Shown one piece after another: positions 27,425 to 35,535 of a stretch of DNA of 37,450 nt; position 1 is the stretch's first letter; each line of letters begins with the position of its first letter. The position numbers and the translations under genes are program-made. This DNA comes from Candidatus Eisenbacteria bacterium. GTDB lineage: Bacteria > Eisenbacteria > RBG-16-71-46. The notes below the pieces were generated by a model. It saw only the letters and a list, made by a program, of their open reading frames with translations, ran no database searches and was not told where the DNA came from. The stretch is taken from the NCBI GenBank assembly GCA_020847735.1, contig JADLBL010000013.1, positions 1-37,450 on the forward strand, in the 5' to 3' direction.

Positions 27425-30400
27425 CTACGGCGCGACGCGGTATCGCGACGGCGGGCCCTGCTCGCCGGCCCGGCGGGTGAGCGCGGACTCGGGCCGGTTG
27501 CGTGAGGGCGCGCCTTCGGATCGCGAGCCGCCGGCTCCGAACGAGGCCGCGCGCTCGACGACCACCGTGAGCGCGCCGAGCGTCTCGTCCACGCGGCCCT
27601 CGACGCGCACGACCTCGCCGGACATCGCGGCGCCGAGCCGCCGGTAGTCGCGGGGGAAGACGACGCACTCGGCGGCGCCGCCACGGTCGGCGAGCGTCGT
27701 GAACAGCACGTGACCGCCGGTCTTCGCCTCGACGCGCCGTGAGGCGCACGGCACGCCGCAAAGGGCGACCCAGCGGCCCACCCAGTGGTGGAGCGAAGCG
27801 CACGACACGGTGTCCTCGAGCGCCTCAGGCGGCGCGAACACCTCGAGCGGATGGGCGCTGAACCACAGGCCCGTCGAGGCGAACTCACCGCGCACGCGCT
27901 CGGCGCGCGGCAGCTCGGGCAGCTCCGGCAGCGCCTCGCCTCCCGGTTTCGGGGCCCCGGCCGCCGGCGCGAGCGGAACACCGTCGGGCGAGACCAGCGT
28001 GCCACGCACTCCCGCGCGCGCCCCGCCGCGCCGGCCCGCGGCCGCGGCGAGCGCCGTGCCGACGCGCGCTTCGAGCAGCATGGACGCGCGCGTACGCGGG
28101 CGGCCGCCCGGGCCCGGCAGCGCATCGCACGCGCCCGCGAGCACCAGCGCTGCCAGCTCGGGCGGCGTGGCGCGCGCGCGGTCCACGAGATCGGCCAGGC
28201 TCGCGAACGCGCGCGCCCCGCGCGCCGCGACGATCCGCGCGCCGGTCGCGTGCGAAAGCCCGGTGACGCGATGCAGCCCGACGCGCACGGCGCCGTGGCG
28301 GGCGAGCAGCGCCGCAGGTGGCGCGCCGCCGCTCGCCGCTGATGGCGCGGCGCGGGCCGCCACCACGACGCCGACCGCCACGACGCGCCGCCTCGCGGCG
28401 CCCTCCTCCGCCGCCAGGTCCGCGCCGGCCGAAGCGCCACGCGCCGCCGTCGGCCCGGTCGCGCGCGGCCACGCGCCGCCGTCGTCCTCGAGCCGGCTCT
28501 CCCAGGCCGAGCGCAGCACGCAGGGCGCGAGCACCCGCACCGGCGGGCGATGAAGCCCGCCGCGGCGCAGGTCCTCGACGTGCACCCATGTCGGGTACAT
28601 GCCGGCGTGCGAGTGCAGCACGCCGACGAGCCAGGCGGCGGGCAGGCGCGTCTTGAGCCACGCGCTCTGCCAGGCGAGCCGGCCGTAGCCGGCCGCGTGC
28701 GCCTTGCAGAACGCGTAGCCGGCGAAGCGCGCGAGTTCGGCCCACACGCGCCGGCCGTCGGCTTCGGCGACGCCCGCGCGCGCGCAACGCGCGAGGAAAC
28801 CGCGCTCGAGGAAGCGGAACTCCTCCTCGTCGCGCGCGGCGGCGATCGCGCGGCGTAGCGTCTCGCCCTCGGCGAACGGCAGGCCGACGAGCGCGTGCGC
28901 GACGCGCATGACGTCCTCTTCGTAGAGCAGCACGCCGTGCGTGCCGGCGAGCGTTTCGCGCAGCCGCTCGTGCGGGAACGCGACCGGCTCGAGCCCGCGG
29001 CGGCGGCGGCAGAACGCCGCCTTGGCGCCGGACTCGGCGGGCCCCGGCCGCACGAGCGCGACCGCCGCCACCGTGTCGTCGAGCGTGTCACCCGCCAGCA
29101 TGCGCAGCAGGCCGCGCATCGCGGGCGACTCGAGCTGGAAGCAGTTGAGCGTGTCGCCCGCGGCGACCACCTCGCCGGTTCGCGTGTCGTCGTCGGGGAT
29201 GTCGTCCGGGTCGGGCACGAAGTCGGGCACGACCTGACGCACGTCCGCGAAGGCGGCCGCGCCGCCGTGTGCGCCGCCCGTCGTGAGCTCGAGGCATTCG
29301 CCGATGGTGGTGATCGCGCGATTGCCGAGCAGGTCCATCTTGACGAGCCCGATCGCCTCGACCGCGCGCATTTCGAACTGCGAGATCACGACGCCCTTGG
29401 CCGCGCGCTCGAGCGGCAGGTAGTGCGTCAGCTCGCGGTCGGCGATGACGAGCCCGCCACAGTGGACGCCCAGGTGCCGCGGCGCGCCCGCGAGCTTCGC
29501 GGCGAGGCGCAGCGCCTCGGCGATGCGCGGCTCGCGGAACTCGTCCGCGTGGCCCGCGTGCAGCGTCCGTTCGAGCGCCGAGGAGTCGGGCAGGGCGCCG
29601 CGCGGGACGCGGCGCGCGAGCGCGTTGACGCGCGGCAGCGGCACGCCGAGGACCTTGGCCGCCTCGCGGAACGCCGCGCGCGGGCCGAGCGTCGCGTGCG
29701 TCGCGATCATCGCCACGCGGCTCGCGCCGTAGGCCTCGTAGACGTGCGCGATCACCTCGTCGCGACGGCGCCAGCACAGGTCCACGTCGAGGTCGGGGCA
29801 GTCGCGCCGTTGCGGGTGCAGGAAGCGCTCGAAGCGCAGGCCGTAGCGGATCGGGTCCACGTTGGTCACGCCGAGCAGGTAGGCGACGATGGACGCGGCG
29901 CCCGAGCCGCGGCCGACGGTCGGGATGCCGCGCGAGCGCGCGAAGCCGACGATGTCGGCGACGAGCAGGAAGTAATCGGTGAAGCCCATGCGTTCGATGA
30001 GCGCGAGCTCGGTCTCGCAACGGGCCCGCGCCGCGCGGCGCACGGCGGGGGACGCGGCGCGCGCGGACGCGCCCGCGACGGACGTGCGCTCCGGGTAGCG
30101 GCGTTCGAGGCCCTCGCGCGCCAGCTCGCGCAGGCGGCGGATCGCCCAGCGGCGGTCATCGTCATCGGCGTGCGCGCCCGCGGCCGGCGGTGCGTTCGCC
30201 GATGCGTCGTCGCCCGGCCGGCGCGGAGCGCGCGGGAAGATGGGCACGCCCATCTCGATCGCGCAGCGGCAGCGTTCGGCGAGCGCCTCGTTGTTGGCGA
30301 GCAGCACGCCGGCGGCGTCGGCGCAGCCGGCGCCGGCGCACACCGCGCGCACACGGCGCACCCACTCCGCGGGCGATGCGAGCCAGGCCTCGCGCGCGCC

Positions 30401-31069
30401 GAAGGAGCCGGGCGGCATGCGTTCGAGCAGCTCGTTCGCGGCGACGGTCACGGCGACGCGGTGCGCTTCGTGATCGGCGGGCGAGAGCAGGAGCACGTCG
30501 CCGGTCGCGACGGCGGGCACGCCGAGCTCGCGCGCGGCGAGGAGCCGCTCGCGCAGGCGCGGCCGCTCGAACGGCAGCCCGCGCACGCCGAGCCACAGCC
30601 CGCCGCGGCGGCCGTCCACGGGGCGCGCGGGCGTGCGGCCTTCGCGGGCGGGCGCGGTGGCGCCCGCGGCGGCCGGCACGCCGGCGGCGAGCAGCGCGGC
30701 GGCGAGCGCGGGCGACTCGGCGACGACGTGGAGTCCGGCGTGCAGTTCGCCGACGGCGACGGCGAGGTCGAAGGCGGGATCGAGGTGGCGGGCGGTGAGC
30801 AGCGCGCACAGGTTGGCCCAGCCGCGGCGGTCGAGCGGCAGCAGCAGCACGGCCGCGCGGCCGTGCGTCAGCTCGGCGCCGGGCAGCGCCCGCAGGCCGT
30901 TGGCTGCGGCGTGCTGGAGGAAGCGGACGGCGAGATAGAGGTTGTCGCGGTCGGTCAGCGCGAGCGCCCGGTAGCCGAGTTCGAGGGCGCGGTCCGCGAG
31001 CGCTTCGGGAGCGGCGACGCCGGCGAGGAGCGAGCCGTGGGAGCGGACGCGGAGCGGGGTGAAGGGCAT
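27425..31069 (-). CDS. dnaE2: DnaE2-like error-prone DNA polymerase (C-family, Pol III alpha-type)
   Basis: 1214 residues from ATG 31069 (GTG 31081 is possible but the RBS-like GTGAGG fits 31069). All three polymerase aspartates are visible: PDLDVDLCWRRRDEV (two) and KMDLLGNRAITT (third). GRGSGAASIVAYLLGVTNVDPI, LGVHCGGLVIAD, FQLESPAMRGLLR, EEDVMRVAH and FCKAHAAGYGRLAWQSAWLK are also typical. The PHP domain is degenerate: the usual HxHS of the active PHP is RVRSHGS, and TDH is TDR, so metal-dependent proofreading is unlikely. A long Ala-rich insert precedes the HhH region, and an OB-fold closes the protein (VGRWVALCGVP ...). No C-terminal tau-binding extension is obvious. Last gene of the SOS-type operon with DUF6504, dinB and VOC, hence the DnaE2 rather than replicative DnaE call. 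Confidence 0.9.
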   Translation of the reverse strand: MPFTPLRVRSHGSLLAGVAAPEALADRALELGYRALALTDRDNLYLAVRFLQHAAANGLRALPGAELTHGRAAVLLLPLDRRGWANLCALLTARHLDPAFDLAVAVGELHAGLHVVAESPALAAALLAAGVPAAAGATAPAREGRTPARPVDGRRGGLWLGVRGLPFERPRLRERLLAARELGVPAVATGDVLLLSPADHEAHRVAVTVAANELLERMPPGSFGAREAWLASPAEWVRRVRAVCAGAGCADAAGVLLANNEALAERCRCAIEMGVPIFPRAPRRPGDDASANAPPAAGAHADDDDRRWAIRRLRELAREGLERRYPERTSVAGASARAASPAVRRAARARCETELALIERMGFTDYFLLVADIVGFARSRGIPTVGRGSGAASIVAYLLGVTNVDPIRYGLRFERFLHPQRRDCPDLDVDLCWRRRDEVIAHVYEAYGASRVAMIATHATLGPRAAFREAAKVLGVPLPRVNALARRVPRGALPDSSALERTLHAGHADEFREPRIAEALRLAAKLAGAPRHLGVHCGGLVIADRELTHYLPLERAAKGVVISQFEMRAVEAIGLVKMDLLGNRAITTIGECLELTTGGAHGGAAAFADVRQVVPDFVPDPDDIPDDDTRTGEVVAAGDTLNCFQLESPAMRGLLRMLAGDTLDDTVAAVALVRPGPAESGAKAAFCRRRRGLEPVAFPHERLRETLAGTHGVLLYEEDVMRVAHALVGLPFAEGETLRRAIAAARDEEEFRFLERGFLARCARAGVAEADGRRVWAELARFAGYAFCKAHAAGYGRLAWQSAWLKTRLPAAWLVGVLHSHAGMYPTWVHVEDLRRGGLHRPPVRVLAPCVLRSAWESRLEDDGGAWPRATGPTAARGASAGADLAAEEGAARRRVVAVGVVVAARAAPSAASGGAPPAALLARHGAVRVGLHRVTGLSHATGARIVAARGARAFASLADLVDRARATPPELAALVLAGACDALPGPGGRPRTRASMLLEARVGTALAAAAGRRGGARAGVRGTLVSPDGVPLAPAAGAPKPGGEALPELPELPRAERVRGEFASTGLWFSAHPLEVFAPPEALEDTVSCASLHHWVGRWVALCGVPCASRRVEAKTGGHVLFTTLADRGGAAECVVFPRDYRRLGAAMSGEVVRVEGRVDETLGALTVVVERAASFGAGGSRSEGAPSRNRPESALTRRAGEQGPPSRYRVAP

Positions 31070-31155
31070 GGGTGTCCTCACGTCTCGGGGTGTTCCGTCA
31101 TGCGGGGGCGCCGGCCCCTCGCCCCGCGGGCCTACGCCTTCATGTGCAATCCCCT

Positions 31156-31527
31156 CTACTTCTTGAAGTGCGGGTTCTCGATGAGGCCGAGGGCGTTGCC
31201 GTCGGGGTCGGTGACGGTGGCGACCTTGATGCCTTCGCCGACGTCCTGGACGGGGGAGAGGTCCCGGGCGCCGAGCGAGAGCACGCGGGCGTGCGCGGCG
31301 GCGCAGTCGGCGACGCGCCAGTAGGCGACGACGCCGCGGTTGCCGGGCTGGTGCGCGGGCGGCTCGGCGGGCATCAGGCCCAGCTCGTAGCCGTCGATGT
31401 CGAAGCCGACGTAGAACGGCTGGTCGAAGTAGGGCTCGGCGCCGAACACCTGCGCGTACCAGGCTTTCGCCTTGGCGAGGTCGGCGGTGGGGTAGATCGC
31501 GGTGGCGATCGCGGTGAAGTGGGGCAT
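31156..31527 (-). CDS. VOC (glyoxalase/bleomycin-resistance-like) family protein
   Basis: 123 residues from ATG 31527 with GAGGAGG upstream. The fold is shown by TAIYPTADLAKAKAWYAQVFG, PYFDQPFYVGFDIDGYELGLM, GVVAYWRVADCAAAHARVL and VATVTDPDGNALGLIENPHF, two beta-alpha-beta-beta-beta halves with a possible metal-ligand Glu near the end. It sits between dinB (44-bp gap) and dnaE2 (86-bp gap) and is therefore probably co-transcribed with them. Its substrate and any link to DNA damage are unknown. Confidence 0.88.
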   Translation of the reverse strand: MPHFTAIATAIYPTADLAKAKAWYAQVFGAEPYFDQPFYVGFDIDGYELGLMPAEPPAHQPGNRGVVAYWRVADCAAAHARVLSLGARDLSPVQDVGEGIKVATVTDPDGNALGLIENPHFKK

Positions 31528-31571
31528 CGCGTCCTCCTCATGGAATGGGACGGGCGGTGCGCGCCCGCGGG

Positions 31572-33026
31572 TTACCGGGTGAGCGACGGCGTCCGCAGGC
31601 GGAAGCCGTGGCGATCCTGCTCGACTTCGGTCTTCAGGTGCAGCGCGCGGCCCGAGACGACCGAGCCGTGGCCGAAGCTGCCGCGCACGCGGTCGAGCGC
31701 CTCGCAGAGCGCCGCGCGCCGGCCGGCCTCGCGCTCGTCGAACAGCGCGCCCTGCTCGGCGGTGTCGCGCGTGAAGCCCGACAGCGTGACGCCGACCGCG
31801 TGCAGCGAGACGCGGCGCGTGAACTGCCGCCGCAGCAGCTCGAGCGCGAGCGCGAGCACGACCGGGTCCACGGCGCTCGGCGAGCCGAGCGAGCGCGCCT
31901 GCTCGGCGCCCTCGCCGTCGCTGTAGCGCAGCCGCACCGCGACCGTGCGCGCGGCGAGGCCCAGCTCGCGCGCCGCGCGGCAGGCGCGGCCCGTGAGGTA
32001 GTCGAGCATGCCCTCGATCCCGGCCACGTCGGCAGTGTCGCGGTGGAACGAGGTCTCGCGCGAGATCGTGAGCGGGACCTCGCGTGTCGTGACCGGCGCG
32101 GTGTCGCGGCCGCGGCAGCGCTCGTACAGGAGCCGCCCGGGCGAGCCGAACAACGCTTCGAGCGCGCCGACGGGCAGCGCGCGCAGCTCGCCGATGGTGC
32201 GCAGGTTCATCGAGCGCAGCGTCCGCGCGTGCGCGTGGCCCACGCCCGCGAGTTGCTCGATGGGCCGCCCGACGAGGAACTCCTCGGCTTCGCACTCGAG
32301 CACGCGGGCGAGGCCGTCGGGCTTGACCGTCTTGCCGGCGAGCTTGGCGAGCATGCGGTTGGGCCCGAGCCCGCAGGTGACCGTGAGGCCCGTGTCCTCG
32401 AGGATCGCGCGCTTCAGGCGGGCCGCCGCCGCCACCAGGTCGCCGCCGTGCGTGCGCTCGGTGCCGGTCAGATCGAGGTAGGCCTCGTCGAGATAGGTCT
32501 CGACGTCGGGCGAGAGCGCGCGGCAGCGCTCGAAGATGCGCTCGGCGAAGCAGCGGTAGACCTGCGCGTGGCCTTCGAGGATCACGGCCTTCGGGCACAG
32601 GCGCTTCGCTTCGGTCAGCGTCATGCCGGCCTTGAGCCCGAACGCCCTCGCCTCGTACGAGCACGACGCGATCACGCCCGCGCCGACGATGACCGGTCTG
32701 CCCTTCAGCCGCGGATCGCGCTGCTGCTCGATGCTGGCGAAGAAGGCGTCAATGTCCACGTGCAGGACGGTGCGCGGCTGCAGCGACGCGCCGGGCGTCA
32801 TGGAAGATGTCTCCGGGCGGGCCGGTCCGGCGGGCCCGGCCATCCCCGCGATGCCGGCGCCGGACGCGGCCGCGCCCGAGTGTGGTGTCGTTGCCGTCGC
32901 GTTCGCGCGTTCGATCGCGGCGCCTTGCCGCGGCGTCACGGGTGCCTTGTCGTTCGTGGCCGGAGGCAGGGACGCGTCATGCGTTCCCGCCGGCGCCGCG
33001 ACCGAGCGCGCGATGCTGCGGTTCAT
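31572..33026 (-). CDS. dinB: Y-family DNA polymerase, Pol IV/DinB-like, with intact catalytic residues
   Basis: 484 residues from ATG 33026, which overlaps the DUF6504 stop (TGATG) behind GGAGG. The first ~83 residues are Ala/Pro-rich and unlike Pol IV, so an internal ATG at 32801 (GGAG upstream, 409 residues) is a serious alternative. The palm carboxylates are present: HVDIDAFFASIEQQ (D91, D93) and YLDEAYLDLTG (D180, E181). SCSYEARAFGLKAGM and TVTCGLGPNRMLAKLAGKTVKPDGL (fingers/thumb) follow, then HhH (PIEQLAGVGHAHARTL) and a little-finger domain. QGALF (425-429) fits a QxxLF beta-clamp-binding motif. Because the acids are intact, this is an active lesion-bypass polymerase, not the inactive ImuB of ImuABC systems. 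Confidence 0.9.
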   Translation of the reverse strand: MNRSIARSVAAPAGTHDASLPPATNDKAPVTPRQGAAIERANATATTPHSGAAASGAGIAGMAGPAGPARPETSSMTPGASLQPRTVLHVDIDAFFASIEQQRDPRLKGRPVIVGAGVIASCSYEARAFGLKAGMTLTEAKRLCPKAVILEGHAQVYRCFAERIFERCRALSPDVETYLDEAYLDLTGTERTHGGDLVAAAARLKRAILEDTGLTVTCGLGPNRMLAKLAGKTVKPDGLARVLECEAEEFLVGRPIEQLAGVGHAHARTLRSMNLRTIGELRALPVGALEALFGSPGRLLYERCRGRDTAPVTTREVPLTISRETSFHRDTADVAGIEGMLDYLTGRACRAARELGLAARTVAVRLRYSDGEGAEQARSLGSPSAVDPVVLALALELLRRQFTRRVSLHAVGVTLSGFTRDTAEQGALFDEREAGRRAALCEALDRVRGSFGHGSVVSGRALHLKTEVEQDRHGFRLRTPSLTR

Positions 33027-33280
33027 CAGGCCTCCAGCGAGACCGAGTCGAGCCACCAGAGCAGGTCTCCGCCGTGGAGCTGCAACTGGTAGACGTCGCC
33101 GTTCTCGTCGGTGACGGAGAAATAGAAACGCGGGTGCTTCCCGACCCGGTCCACCCAGCGCGTGTTGACGCGCCGGATCCGGTACTCGCGGCCCCGGCGC
33201 CGGAAGGCCACCGGGGTGGCGGTGCCGCCCGAAAAATCGGCGCGCACCGCCACGGCTTCGTCGATCGCTTCGCTTCGCAT
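33026..33280 (-). CDS. DUF6504-like small protein, first gene of the translesion operon
   Basis: 84 residues from ATG 33280. The sequence SGGTATPVAFRRRGREYRI ... RWVDRVGKHPRFYFSV ... VYQLQLHGGDLLWWLDSVSLEA matches the small DUF6504 proteins often encoded next to Y-family or DnaE2 polymerases in other bacteria. It has the look of a compact beta-rich domain (aromatic, basic), perhaps nucleic-acid or protein binding; no activity is known. Its stop overlaps the dinB start by one base, so the two are translationally coupled. It is the gene closest to the LexA-like operator. Confidence 0.75.
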   Translation of the reverse strand: MRSEAIDEAVAVRADFSGGTATPVAFRRRGREYRIRRVNTRWVDRVGKHPRFYFSVTDENGDVYQLQLHGGDLLWWLDSVSLEA

Positions 33281-33347: not shown

Positions 33348-33377
33348 AATCTACTGCACATGTGTGCAGCAATGCAA
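33348..33377 (-). promoter_or_regulatory. Candidate promoter of the DUF6504-dinB-VOC-dnaE2 operon
   Basis: On the minus strand TTGCAT (33377-33372), 18-bp spacer, TAGATT (33353-33348), leaving about 60 nt of leader before the ATG at 33280. The spacer is almost entirely occupied by the palindrome at 33354-33369, so a bound repressor would block polymerase. Confidence 0.65.
33355..33368. promoter_or_regulatory. LexA operator (SOS box) of the Fibrobacter type
   Basis: TGCACATGTGTGCA fits the consensus TGC-N-C-N4-GTGCA reported for LexA of Fibrobacter succinogenes at every defined base. With flanks it is a 7+2+7 inverted repeat, CTGCACA-TG-TGTGCAG (33354-33369). It lies between the -35 and -10 boxes of the translesion operon. 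The surrounding 325-bp divergent region (33281-33605) otherwise holds the promoter of the plus-strand hydrolase and no coding frame I can support. No lexA gene is in the window, so binding is inferred from motif, position and gene content. Confidence 0.75.
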
Positions 33378-33556: not shown

Positions 33557-33605
33557 CGCCGCGCAGACACCCCAGCAGTCCGCGCAACGACAGGAGGTCT
33601 TCGAC

Positions 33606-34457
33606 GTGCGACTCGCCCGCCTCGCAGTCCCCGCGCTGGTCCTGGCCGCCACGATCACCGCGGCGTTCGCCGCCGGCCCGGCGCCCAGCCTGCAGGTCAC
33701 CGAAATGGGCACGGGCGGCGCCACGATGGTGCTGGTCCACGGCCTCGGCGGCTCGCGCACCGACTGGCTGCCGCTCTTCAAGCGCCTCAAGGACCGCTAC
33801 CGGCTGGTGATGGTCGAGCTGCCCGGGCACGGCACCAGCCCGCTGCCGGACCCGTTCTCGCTGGAAGCCGCCGCCGCGCAGCTCGACAGCGTGATCGCGC
33901 TGCAGAAACCCGAGAGCACGATCGTGGTCGGGCAGGGCCTGGGCGGCATGCTGGCGCTCAAGGCACTCGCCGCGCACCCGGGGCAGGCGCGCGGCCTCGT
34001 GCTGATGGACGCGGCGCTCAAGTCGCCGATTCCGGTGGACGACCAGCAGGTCCAGCAGCTCGTCCGCTTCATGAACGACAACTACACGACGTTCACGCAG
34101 ATGGCGTTCTCGAAGATGGGTCGCGACTCGGCCGAGAGCGCGATCCTGTACGCCAAGCTGGCCGCGGTCGAGCCGGCGACGGTCAAGGCGTACATGCGCA
34201 ACCTCCTGCGTGCCGACGCGAACCGCGAACTCAAGTCGGTCGGGCTTCCCATCGAGCTGATCTTCAGCGAGCGCACCTGGAAGCAGGGTGAGCCGTGGGG
34301 CGAGGTCGCGAAGCGCTTCGGTTACGAGGACACGACGATCGCGGTGCCGCGACGCGTCGGCGGTTCGGGCATGCAGATCGCCAGGGACCAGCCCGACACG
34401 CTCGCGGCGATTCTCTCGGCCTACGGCGCGGCACGGCTGGGGGCGGCGAAGAAGTAG
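33606..34457 (+). CDS. Secreted alpha/beta-hydrolase-fold protein lacking nucleophile and catalytic His
   Basis: 283 residues from GTG 33606 with AGGAGG 8 nt upstream. A signal peptide (LAVPALVLAATITAAFA) sends it out of the cytoplasm. The fold is clear: MVLVHGLGGSRTDWLPLF (oxyanion loop), MVELPGHGTSPLPDPFSL, and the nucleophile elbow, which here reads VVGQGLGGM, with Gln110 in place of Ser. Near the end GGSGMQIARDQP aligns with the THTGHFV-type His loop, and Ser254 replaces His. It is therefore probably a non-enzymatic binding protein. The next gene is a close homologue with the expected Ser and His, so this looks like a duplication with loss of activity in one copy. Confidence 0.88.
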   Translation: MRLARLAVPALVLAATITAAFAAGPAPSLQVTEMGTGGATMVLVHGLGGSRTDWLPLFKRLKDRYRLVMVELPGHGTSPLPDPFSLEAAAAQLDSVIALQKPESTIVVGQGLGGMLALKALAAHPGQARGLVLMDAALKSPIPVDDQQVQQLVRFMNDNYTTFTQMAFSKMGRDSAESAILYAKLAAVEPATVKAYMRNLLRADANRELKSVGLPIELIFSERTWKQGEPWGEVAKRFGYEDTTIAVPRRVGGSGMQIARDQPDTLAAILSAYGAARLGAAKK

Positions 34458-34530
34458 CGCGCAGCCCCGCGACGCCACGGGCCACCGCGCGACGAGCGGC
34501 CCGGACCACGCCCCGACACCGCGCTGACGC

Positions 34531-34561
34531 AAGGCCCGCCCGGCCGCTCCGGGCGGGTCTT
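34531..34561 (+). terminator. Intrinsic terminator after the hydrolase-like gene
   Basis: CCCGCCCGG (34535-34543) pairs with CCGGGCGGG (34549-34557) over a 5-nt loop. The stem extends by one G-U pair and AAG/CTT, giving 13 pairs, followed by TCTTC. It lies about 75 bp after the stop at 34457. Confidence 0.65.
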
Positions 34562-34653
34562 CACGTCGGGCGCAAGCGCGCCGCGGCGGCGGCCGATACC
34601 GGACGCGAGCCCCTCCTTCGCGAGGGATGCGCCGTTTCCGCCCGGGGCCCGCC

Positions 34654-35535
34654 ATGACCCGTCGCCTGCTGCTCGTGCTCGTGCCACTCGTCGCGCTCGT
34701 CCTGGTGCTCGGGCGCGTGGCGTCGGTGCGGCGCGCGCCCGCGGCGCTCGGTTCGTTCGGTTCGGGGCCCGAGGTCGTGCTGGTGCACGGGCTCGGCAGC
34801 CGCGCCGAACACTGGCTGCCCATGGCGCGCGACCTCGCCCGCGACCATCGCGTGATCCTCACCGAGCTGCCCGGTCATGGCATCGCGAGCATGGCGCGGC
34901 CGCTCACGCTTTCGGGCGCCGCGCTCGCGCTCGACCGCGAGATCGCCGACGAATGCCACGGTCCGGTCGTGCTGGTCGGGCACTCCGTGGGTGGTCTCGT
35001 CGCCGCGGCCGAGGCGCTGCACGCGCCGGGACGCGTGCGCGCGCTGGTGCTGGTCGAGACGGCGCTGAAACCCCAGAGGTCGCCGGCCGAGCGGGCCGGG
35101 CTGCTCACCGCGCTCGAGAAGGACTATCGCGGCACGCTGCGCGAGGCGTACGTGCCCTTCGGCCGCGACTCCGCGCAGGGCGCGGCGCTGTTCGCCGAGG
35201 CCGCGCGGCTCGACTCGACGGTCATGAAGGACTGGATCCGGCTCGCCGTGACCGAGGACCTCTCGCGCCAGATCGAGCACCTGTCGGTGCCGCTGCTCGT
35301 CGTGCTCTCGTCGCGCTCGTGGCCGGACTCTGAGAGCTGGCGCGACTGCGCGGCGGAGCTCGGCTACGCCCGGGCGCGCGGCGCCGTTCCGGTGCGGATG
35401 GCTCACACCGGCCACTTCGTCATGCTCGACCGGCCGCAGGCGCTGGCCGACCTCGTGCGCCGCTTCGCGAGCGAGCGCCCGGCGAACCACCTCGCTCAGC
35501 GCACCGGCGTACCGTCGGGGGCGACGCCGGACTGA
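34654..35535 (+). CDS. Membrane-anchored alpha/beta hydrolase (intact Ser and His)
   Basis: 293 residues from ATG 34654; ATG 34627 would add nine residues but GAGGG is too close to it. An N-terminal hydrophobic helix (RLLLVLVPLVALVLVLG) anchors or exports it. VVLVHGLGSRAEHWLPMARDL, ILTELPGHGIASM, nucleophile elbow VLVGHSVGGLVAA (Ser111) and MAHTGHFVMLDRPQALADL (His254) give a normal hydrolase. It aligns along its whole length with the upstream protein (VHGLG..., ELPGHG, GRDSA, ALK), indicating tandem duplication. It likely hydrolyses an ester or lactone, with substrate unknown. Converges on the gene at 35559 with only 23 bp between. Confidence 0.85.
   Translation: MTRRLLLVLVPLVALVLVLGRVASVRRAPAALGSFGSGPEVVLVHGLGSRAEHWLPMARDLARDHRVILTELPGHGIASMARPLTLSGAALALDREIADECHGPVVLVGHSVGGLVAAAEALHAPGRVRALVLVETALKPQRSPAERAGLLTALEKDYRGTLREAYVPFGRDSAQGAALFAEAARLDSTVMKDWIRLAVTEDLSRQIEHLSVPLLVVLSSRSWPDSESWRDCAAELGYARARGAVPVRMAHTGHFVMLDRPQALADLVRRFASERPANHLAQRTGVPSGATPD

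Follow-up and report, generated by a model that had tools for sequence, protein, structure and literature searches.

How might an SOS mutagenesis cassette be wired without ImuA? The question is raised by an operon in the first 37,450 nucleotides (hereafter the window) of contig JADLBL010000013.1 (C13) from the Candidatus Eisenbacteria assembly GCA_020847735.1, a genome of 3.66 Mb that is 99.6% complete. The operon lies on the minus strand and is transcribed in the order DUF6504, Y-family DNA polymerase (PolY), VOC, DnaE2. The original prediction, made from the sequence alone, placed a mutagenesis cassette at 27425-33280, and its genes, coordinates and domains were all recovered as follows, together with a putative operator and motifs in the PolY tail.

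33354..33369, minus strand: candidate LexA-type (SOS) operator CTGCACACATGTGCAG, in the 18-nucleotide spacer between TTGCAT (33377-33372) and TAGATT (33353-33348)
33029..33280, minus strand: DUF6504, a predicted standalone ImuB-C, 84 amino acids, modeled as an all-beta barrel (PF20114, E 1.8e-6)
31572..33026, minus strand: Y-family DNA polymerase, DinB/PolY-like (PF00817, PF11799, PF21999)
~31575..31750 (approximate), minus strand: PolY C-terminal tail with QGALF, the RecA-NT-like motif RRAALCEALDRVRGSFGHGSVV and the terminus LRTPSLT[KR]
31156..31527, minus strand: VOC/glyoxalase-family protein, 123 amino acids (PF00903, E 1.7e-12)
27425..31069, minus strand: DnaE2, error-prone C-family polymerase, 1214 amino acids (PF07733, PF17657)

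We consider it likely that this operon encodes a LexA/RecA-controlled, ImuA-less mutasome that combines DnaE2, PolY, a standalone ImuB-C and RecA. The sequence evidence for this reading comprises gene composition and conservation, an SOS box, active sites and interaction motifs, the homology of DUF6504 with ImuB-C, and the absence of ImuA.

Control by the SOS response, as originally predicted, is suggested by the box CTGCACA-NN-TGTGCAG in the operon promoter, upstream of DUF6504. The 14-base pattern TGCACANNTGTGNA has two exact copies in the whole genome, one in this promoter and the other in the recA promoter, and a copy with one mismatch lies ~60 bases upstream of the LexA domain (lexA), a candidate operator thus being common to recA, lexA and the operon. 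This suggests that Eisenbacteria LexA is autoregulated, and we infer that the operon box is bound by LexA. Our conservation survey covered 47 genomes of the phylum Eisenbacteria; wherever a family genome has enough upstream sequence (12 of 12), the box lies ahead of DUF6504, and in genome G019 it directly precedes PolY. In other families of the class no such box turned up ahead of DUF6504, and LexA may recognize a different motif there. A sigma-70 scan at a strict threshold found no promoter at the operon, the -35 and -10 elements flanking the box (TTGCAT and TAGATT) having been assigned by eye. At the LexA gene (C25:57137-57808), an SOS-like box CTGCACGCGTGTGCAC was noted between TTGACG and TAGTGT. 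A further SOS-like box with one mismatch (CTGCCCACTTGTGCAG, C12:57032-57045) immediately precedes a radical-SAM-like reading frame (PVRGMPFEWSLNPYMGCAHRCTFCYVR...), which may be another gene under LexA control; a connection between ImuB-C and SplB-like radical SAM proteins has been reported (PMC3765255).

The first gene product, DUF6504, is on homology grounds the C-terminal domain of ImuB encoded as a separate protein. It scores 28.6 bits against PF20114, above the family cut-off of 24.2. The strongest link is provided by a plasmid operon of Deinococcus sp. QL22 that contains lexA, a Y-family polymerase, a protein labeled "DUF6504 family protein" in RefSeq, and DnaE2: there the DUF6504 protein occupies the ImuB-C position of the operon and matches PF20114 at E 1.1e-6, as against 1.8e-6 for the window protein. 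RefSeq gives the same label to some intact ImuB proteins (Methylocapsa, Methylovirgula), PF20114 has a weak hit (E 0.05) at the C-terminal end of Rhizobium ImuB, residues 428-481, and across 14 control genomes its sole match was in Caulobacter. Alignment with hhalign of 19 Eisenbacteria DUF6504 proteins against nine ImuB C-termini gave P 2.8e-5 and a moderate probability of 74%, and the identification therefore draws its main support from synteny and membership in the family. The AlphaFold model of DUF6504 is all beta with a mean confidence (pLDDT) of 92.7, and a PDB fold search with it returned no significant match, in agreement with the published description of ImuB-C as a beta barrel that has no near counterpart in the PDB. 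A tblastn search of a plasmid collection with the window protein found no match, probably because DUF6504 is short and divergent. The proposal that DUF6504 replaces an accessory function in a distinct wiring was thus half right: the ImuA-less wiring stands, and the novel substitute gives way to a detached ImuB-C. No paper in the literature searched uses the name DUF6504, and the link with ImuB-C helps the annotation of many RefSeq proteins.

PolY retains the acidic triad D91, D180 and E181 (numbered on the 484-residue reading), which is kept across the family, and its best PDB match is DNA polymerase IV (7yll). With its catalytic residues intact the protein is predicted to be active, and the QxxLF clamp motif reported earlier reads QGALF, near the C-terminus. 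The start of PolY is uncertain, lying either at a TGATG junction or at an internal ATG near 32800, because the N-terminal ~80 residues are nonconserved and of low complexity and the extension differs in length between relatives, from a few residues to over 100. The TGATG said to couple the first two genes does form an overlap of DUF6504 and PolY, and recurs in relatives where PolY begins directly there (G037, G024).

Beyond QGALF the PolY tail carries the RecA-NT-like motif. A profile of 21 tails placed against the genome's own RecA found its best site at residue 14, with a score of 21.1 (next best 4.4) that was reached in 16 of 5000 shuffles. The RecA-NT motif has been described before for Y-family polymerases, and in Mycobacterium ImuB it is critical for binding of ImuA'. 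We consider it most likely that RecA, by way of this predicted tail motif, stands in for ImuA. In every PolY tail, LRTPSLT[KR] or a sequence close to it directly precedes the stop codon (31575-31600 in the window, and in relatives). A literature search, which was not exhaustive for this terminus, found no published description of it; it is a candidate docking motif.

DnaE2 keeps its polymerase aspartates (PDLDVD, KMDLLG), and its PHP active site is degenerate, with R, R and A in place of the H, H and D of PHP-active homologs and TDR in place of TDH. Residue checks found no internal clamp motif in DnaE2, whereas the genome's own DnaE1 keeps QSSLF; DnaE2 should thus depend on a partner for contact with the clamp, and the motif is present in PolY. 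The nearest relatives of DnaE2 in named genomes are nearly all from Candidatus Eisenbacteria, at 57-76% identity. In a tree of 35 DnaE proteins, small and long-branched, the Eisenbacteria DnaE2 stands apart from DnaE1 (100/100) and from the ImuA-linked DnaE2A, and groups (100/100) with PolY-adjacent Bacteroidota DnaE2 (DnaE2B), plus Desulfosarcina. Its placement in DnaE2B is uncertain because a Streptomyces DnaE2B-type row falls away from the Eisenbacteria and Bacteroidota proteins in this tree. Another Eisenbacteria family (G042:C42, G039:C62, G044:C14) has a different PolY-DnaE2 pair, the DnaE2 of which clusters with the one from lexA-DUF72-PolY-DnaE2, a plasmid operon of Desulfosarcina in which the annotated PolY lacks the first catalytic block.

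By analogy with published mutasomes, LexA binding, a physical complex, RecA docking, ImuB-C-PHP contact and mutagenic output may all be expected of the Eisenbacteria operon. DNA damage would lead to RecA filaments and cleavage of LexA, opening the operon promoter. PolY would serve as the hub, held on the beta clamp by QGALF, with its RecA-NT-like tail docking a RecA subunit at the place of ImuA in canonical cassettes, and ImuB-C would link PolY and RecA with DnaE2 at its degenerate PHP domain. DnaE2, which would lack PHP proofreading, could then extend across or beyond lesions and leave mutations, and PolY, its active site being intact, may insert opposite some lesions. Several observations weigh against this picture. 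The hhalign probability for ImuB-C is moderate, as given above, and the RecA-NT match spans just 27 residues (shuffling gives p about 0.003). Two genomes, G019 and G026, have no detectable DUF6504 beside PolY, the upstream sequence being present, and the host organism is uncultured. In addition, ImuB-C has been proposed to act differently (PMC3765255), mainly as a DNA-binding barrel that recognizes damage and recruits the polymerases rather than bridging proteins. Several invariant basic and aromatic residues of DUF6504 (e.g., R13, W42, W75) are consistent with such a role. However, published AlphaFold models put ImuB-C on the PHP domain of DnaE2 (PMC12926913), and Mycobacterium ImuB-C stabilises the ImuA'-ImuB contact, so that we regard a primarily DNA-binding function as plausible but rather unlikely.

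The gene-order survey around dnaE2 found the architecture to be conserved. DUF6504, PolY and DnaE2 are kept together throughout the family and in most of the class. PolY (68-83% identity) shares its locus with DnaE2 in nearly all family genomes where the contigs allow, and DUF6504, 84 amino acids long in each case, lies upstream of PolY in 13 of the 15 testable family genomes and in eight of nine more distant ones. The arrangement is beyond chance, since the order of the 84-residue DUF6504 and PolY is kept in families whose proteins share merely 43-59% identity. It is conceivable that the Eisenbacteria form is a separate architecture, in which two catalytically competent polymerases, PolY and a DnaE2 of its own clade lacking a clamp motif, are held in one RecA-containing complex by the 84-residue ImuB-C, and the near-invariant PolY terminus LRTPSLT[KR] serves as a hitherto undescribed docking site for either ImuB-C or DnaE2. 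Insertion would then fall to one active site and extension to another on the same clamp, but we hold this to be distinctly unlikely.

The same conservation bears on whether there is a single complex at all. The PolY-ImuB-C pair and DnaE2 might be independent translesion polymerases under a common SOS promoter, since catalytic residues are intact in both, genome G005 has DnaE2 and DUF6504-PolY on different contigs, and PolY-ImuB-C pairs without DnaE2 occur in Geobacter and on contig C20 of the present genome. Against this, PolY and DnaE2 stay neighbors throughout the family, in many cases 23-87 nucleotides apart, DnaE2 lacks a clamp motif and hence needs a partner, and published DnaE2 proteins require a Y-family partner (PMC11791113, PMC8072749); independent action is accordingly judged improbable. 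The C20 pair (C20:384312-385933) consists of a DUF6504-like gene (98 amino acids, E 2e-4) directly upstream of a Y-family gene; its polymerase is of the active type with its own QTELF and RecA-NT-like tail, and a DUF72-like reading frame comes next. No SOS box was seen upstream of this pair on inspection by eye.

Of the two accessory genes said to be built into the operon, DUF6504 is conserved as described above and VOC is not, being present in eight of the 17 family loci. In family loci without it, PolY and DnaE2 are separated by 23-87 nucleotides or another protein of ~235 residues fills the slot; VOC was not found in the remaining families surveyed, in which there is often hardly any gap between PolY and DnaE2. 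VOC is an optional passenger rather than a core part, as its slot is otherwise closed or filled by another gene. The variable presence of VOC and the other occupants of the PolY-dnaE2 gap rule it out as a core component. The recurrence of VOC in one slot of eight loci could hint at a functional part in the mutasome, for example by acting on a damaged nucleotide or on a drug of the bleomycin type, but its absence from nine family loci and from the other families, together with the use of the slot by other genes, makes this very improbable. The ~235-residue protein, which is conserved and has no Pfam match (RHRAEALCFALA ... GDFDVATLWLRLPG ... HWLVVGWMEG), often occupies the VOC slot (loci L134, L135, L139, L141 and L143).

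The original claim that ImuA is missing held throughout the genome. A search with the ImuA model and with an alignment of two real ImuA proteins matched only RecA (contig C3), and genome-wide searches recovered two DnaE genes (PF07733), the replicative DnaE1 on C20 and DnaE2 on C13, and two Y-family genes (PF00817), that of the operon and one on C20. Profile searches of the genome found no imuB and no second imuA-imuB-dnaE2 cassette. A canonical cassette with its imuA located elsewhere has next to no probability, given these searches, a PolY that is catalytically intact and without fused ImuB-C, and an operon DnaE2 that groups outside the ImuA-linked DnaE2A, and at 99.6% completeness is ruled out unless imuA falls in the missing 0.4%.

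A 2013 paper (PMC3765255) already described ImuB-C as a standalone protein encoded alongside Pol IV or DnaE2 in operons, and ImuA-less variants with active or inactive PolY and with standalone ImuB-C and/or DnaE2 followed in 2019 (PMC6511836). A 2026 survey (PMC12926913), which does not mention Eisenbacteria, distinguished 11 module types; the one made up of DnaE2, active PolY, ImuB-C and RecA was found in Actinobacteria only. As such ImuA-less modules are already published, the Eisenbacteria operon is of a known type: it extends the ImuA-less mutasome to a little-studied, uncultured phylum, and establishes no new kind of system. New here are the phylum, the explicit link of DUF6504 with ImuB-C, and a candidate SOS operator for Eisenbacteria. 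The operon also agrees with an earlier suggestion in the literature, namely that mutasomes built on Y-family polymerases and DnaE2 had RecA itself as their ancestral partner.

The closest likeness in composition is to the DnaE2-[ImuB-C]-PolY-RecA module (fourth DnaE2B group, e.g., Tessaracoccus lapidicaptus; PMC12926913), which shares an active PolY bearing RecA-NT, a standalone ImuB-C, DnaE2 and the lack of ImuA and ImuB. In contrast to that actinobacterial module, the Eisenbacteria operon has a DnaE2 nearest, in the DnaE tree, to those of Bacteroidota and Desulfosarcina, an optional VOC, and the conserved LRTPSLT[KR]. The Deinococcus cassette lexA-imuY-imuB-C-dnaE2 likewise combines a Y-family protein, a standalone ImuB-C (named DUF6504) and DnaE2 under LexA control with no imuA, but its ImuY lacks catalytic residues, lexA lies within the operon, ImuB-C follows ImuY, and DnaE2 is of a different clade. 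Bacteroidota DnaE2B-PolY-RecA operons (Cellulophaga, Emticicia; PMC6511836) have an active PolY beside a related DnaE2 (100/100) and no ImuA, but no ImuB-C gene has been reported in them. In the damage-induced Geobacter operon lexA-imuB-C-polY (GeoPolY; PMC6511836) a standalone ImuB-C lies upstream of an active PolY; lacking dnaE2, it is nearer to the C20 pair. The canonical ImuA-ImuB-DnaE2 mutasome (Caulobacter, Mycobacterium) shares an error-prone DnaE2, a Y-family hub with a clamp motif, the ImuB-C domain and SOS control; it differs in having ImuA and a catalytically dead ImuB with fused ImuB-C, whereas in Eisenbacteria ImuA is absent, PolY is intact and ImuB-C is on a separate gene.

Elsewhere in the window, two neighboring alpha/beta-hydrolase-like genes (33558-35535, plus strand) are divergent from the mutasome operon.

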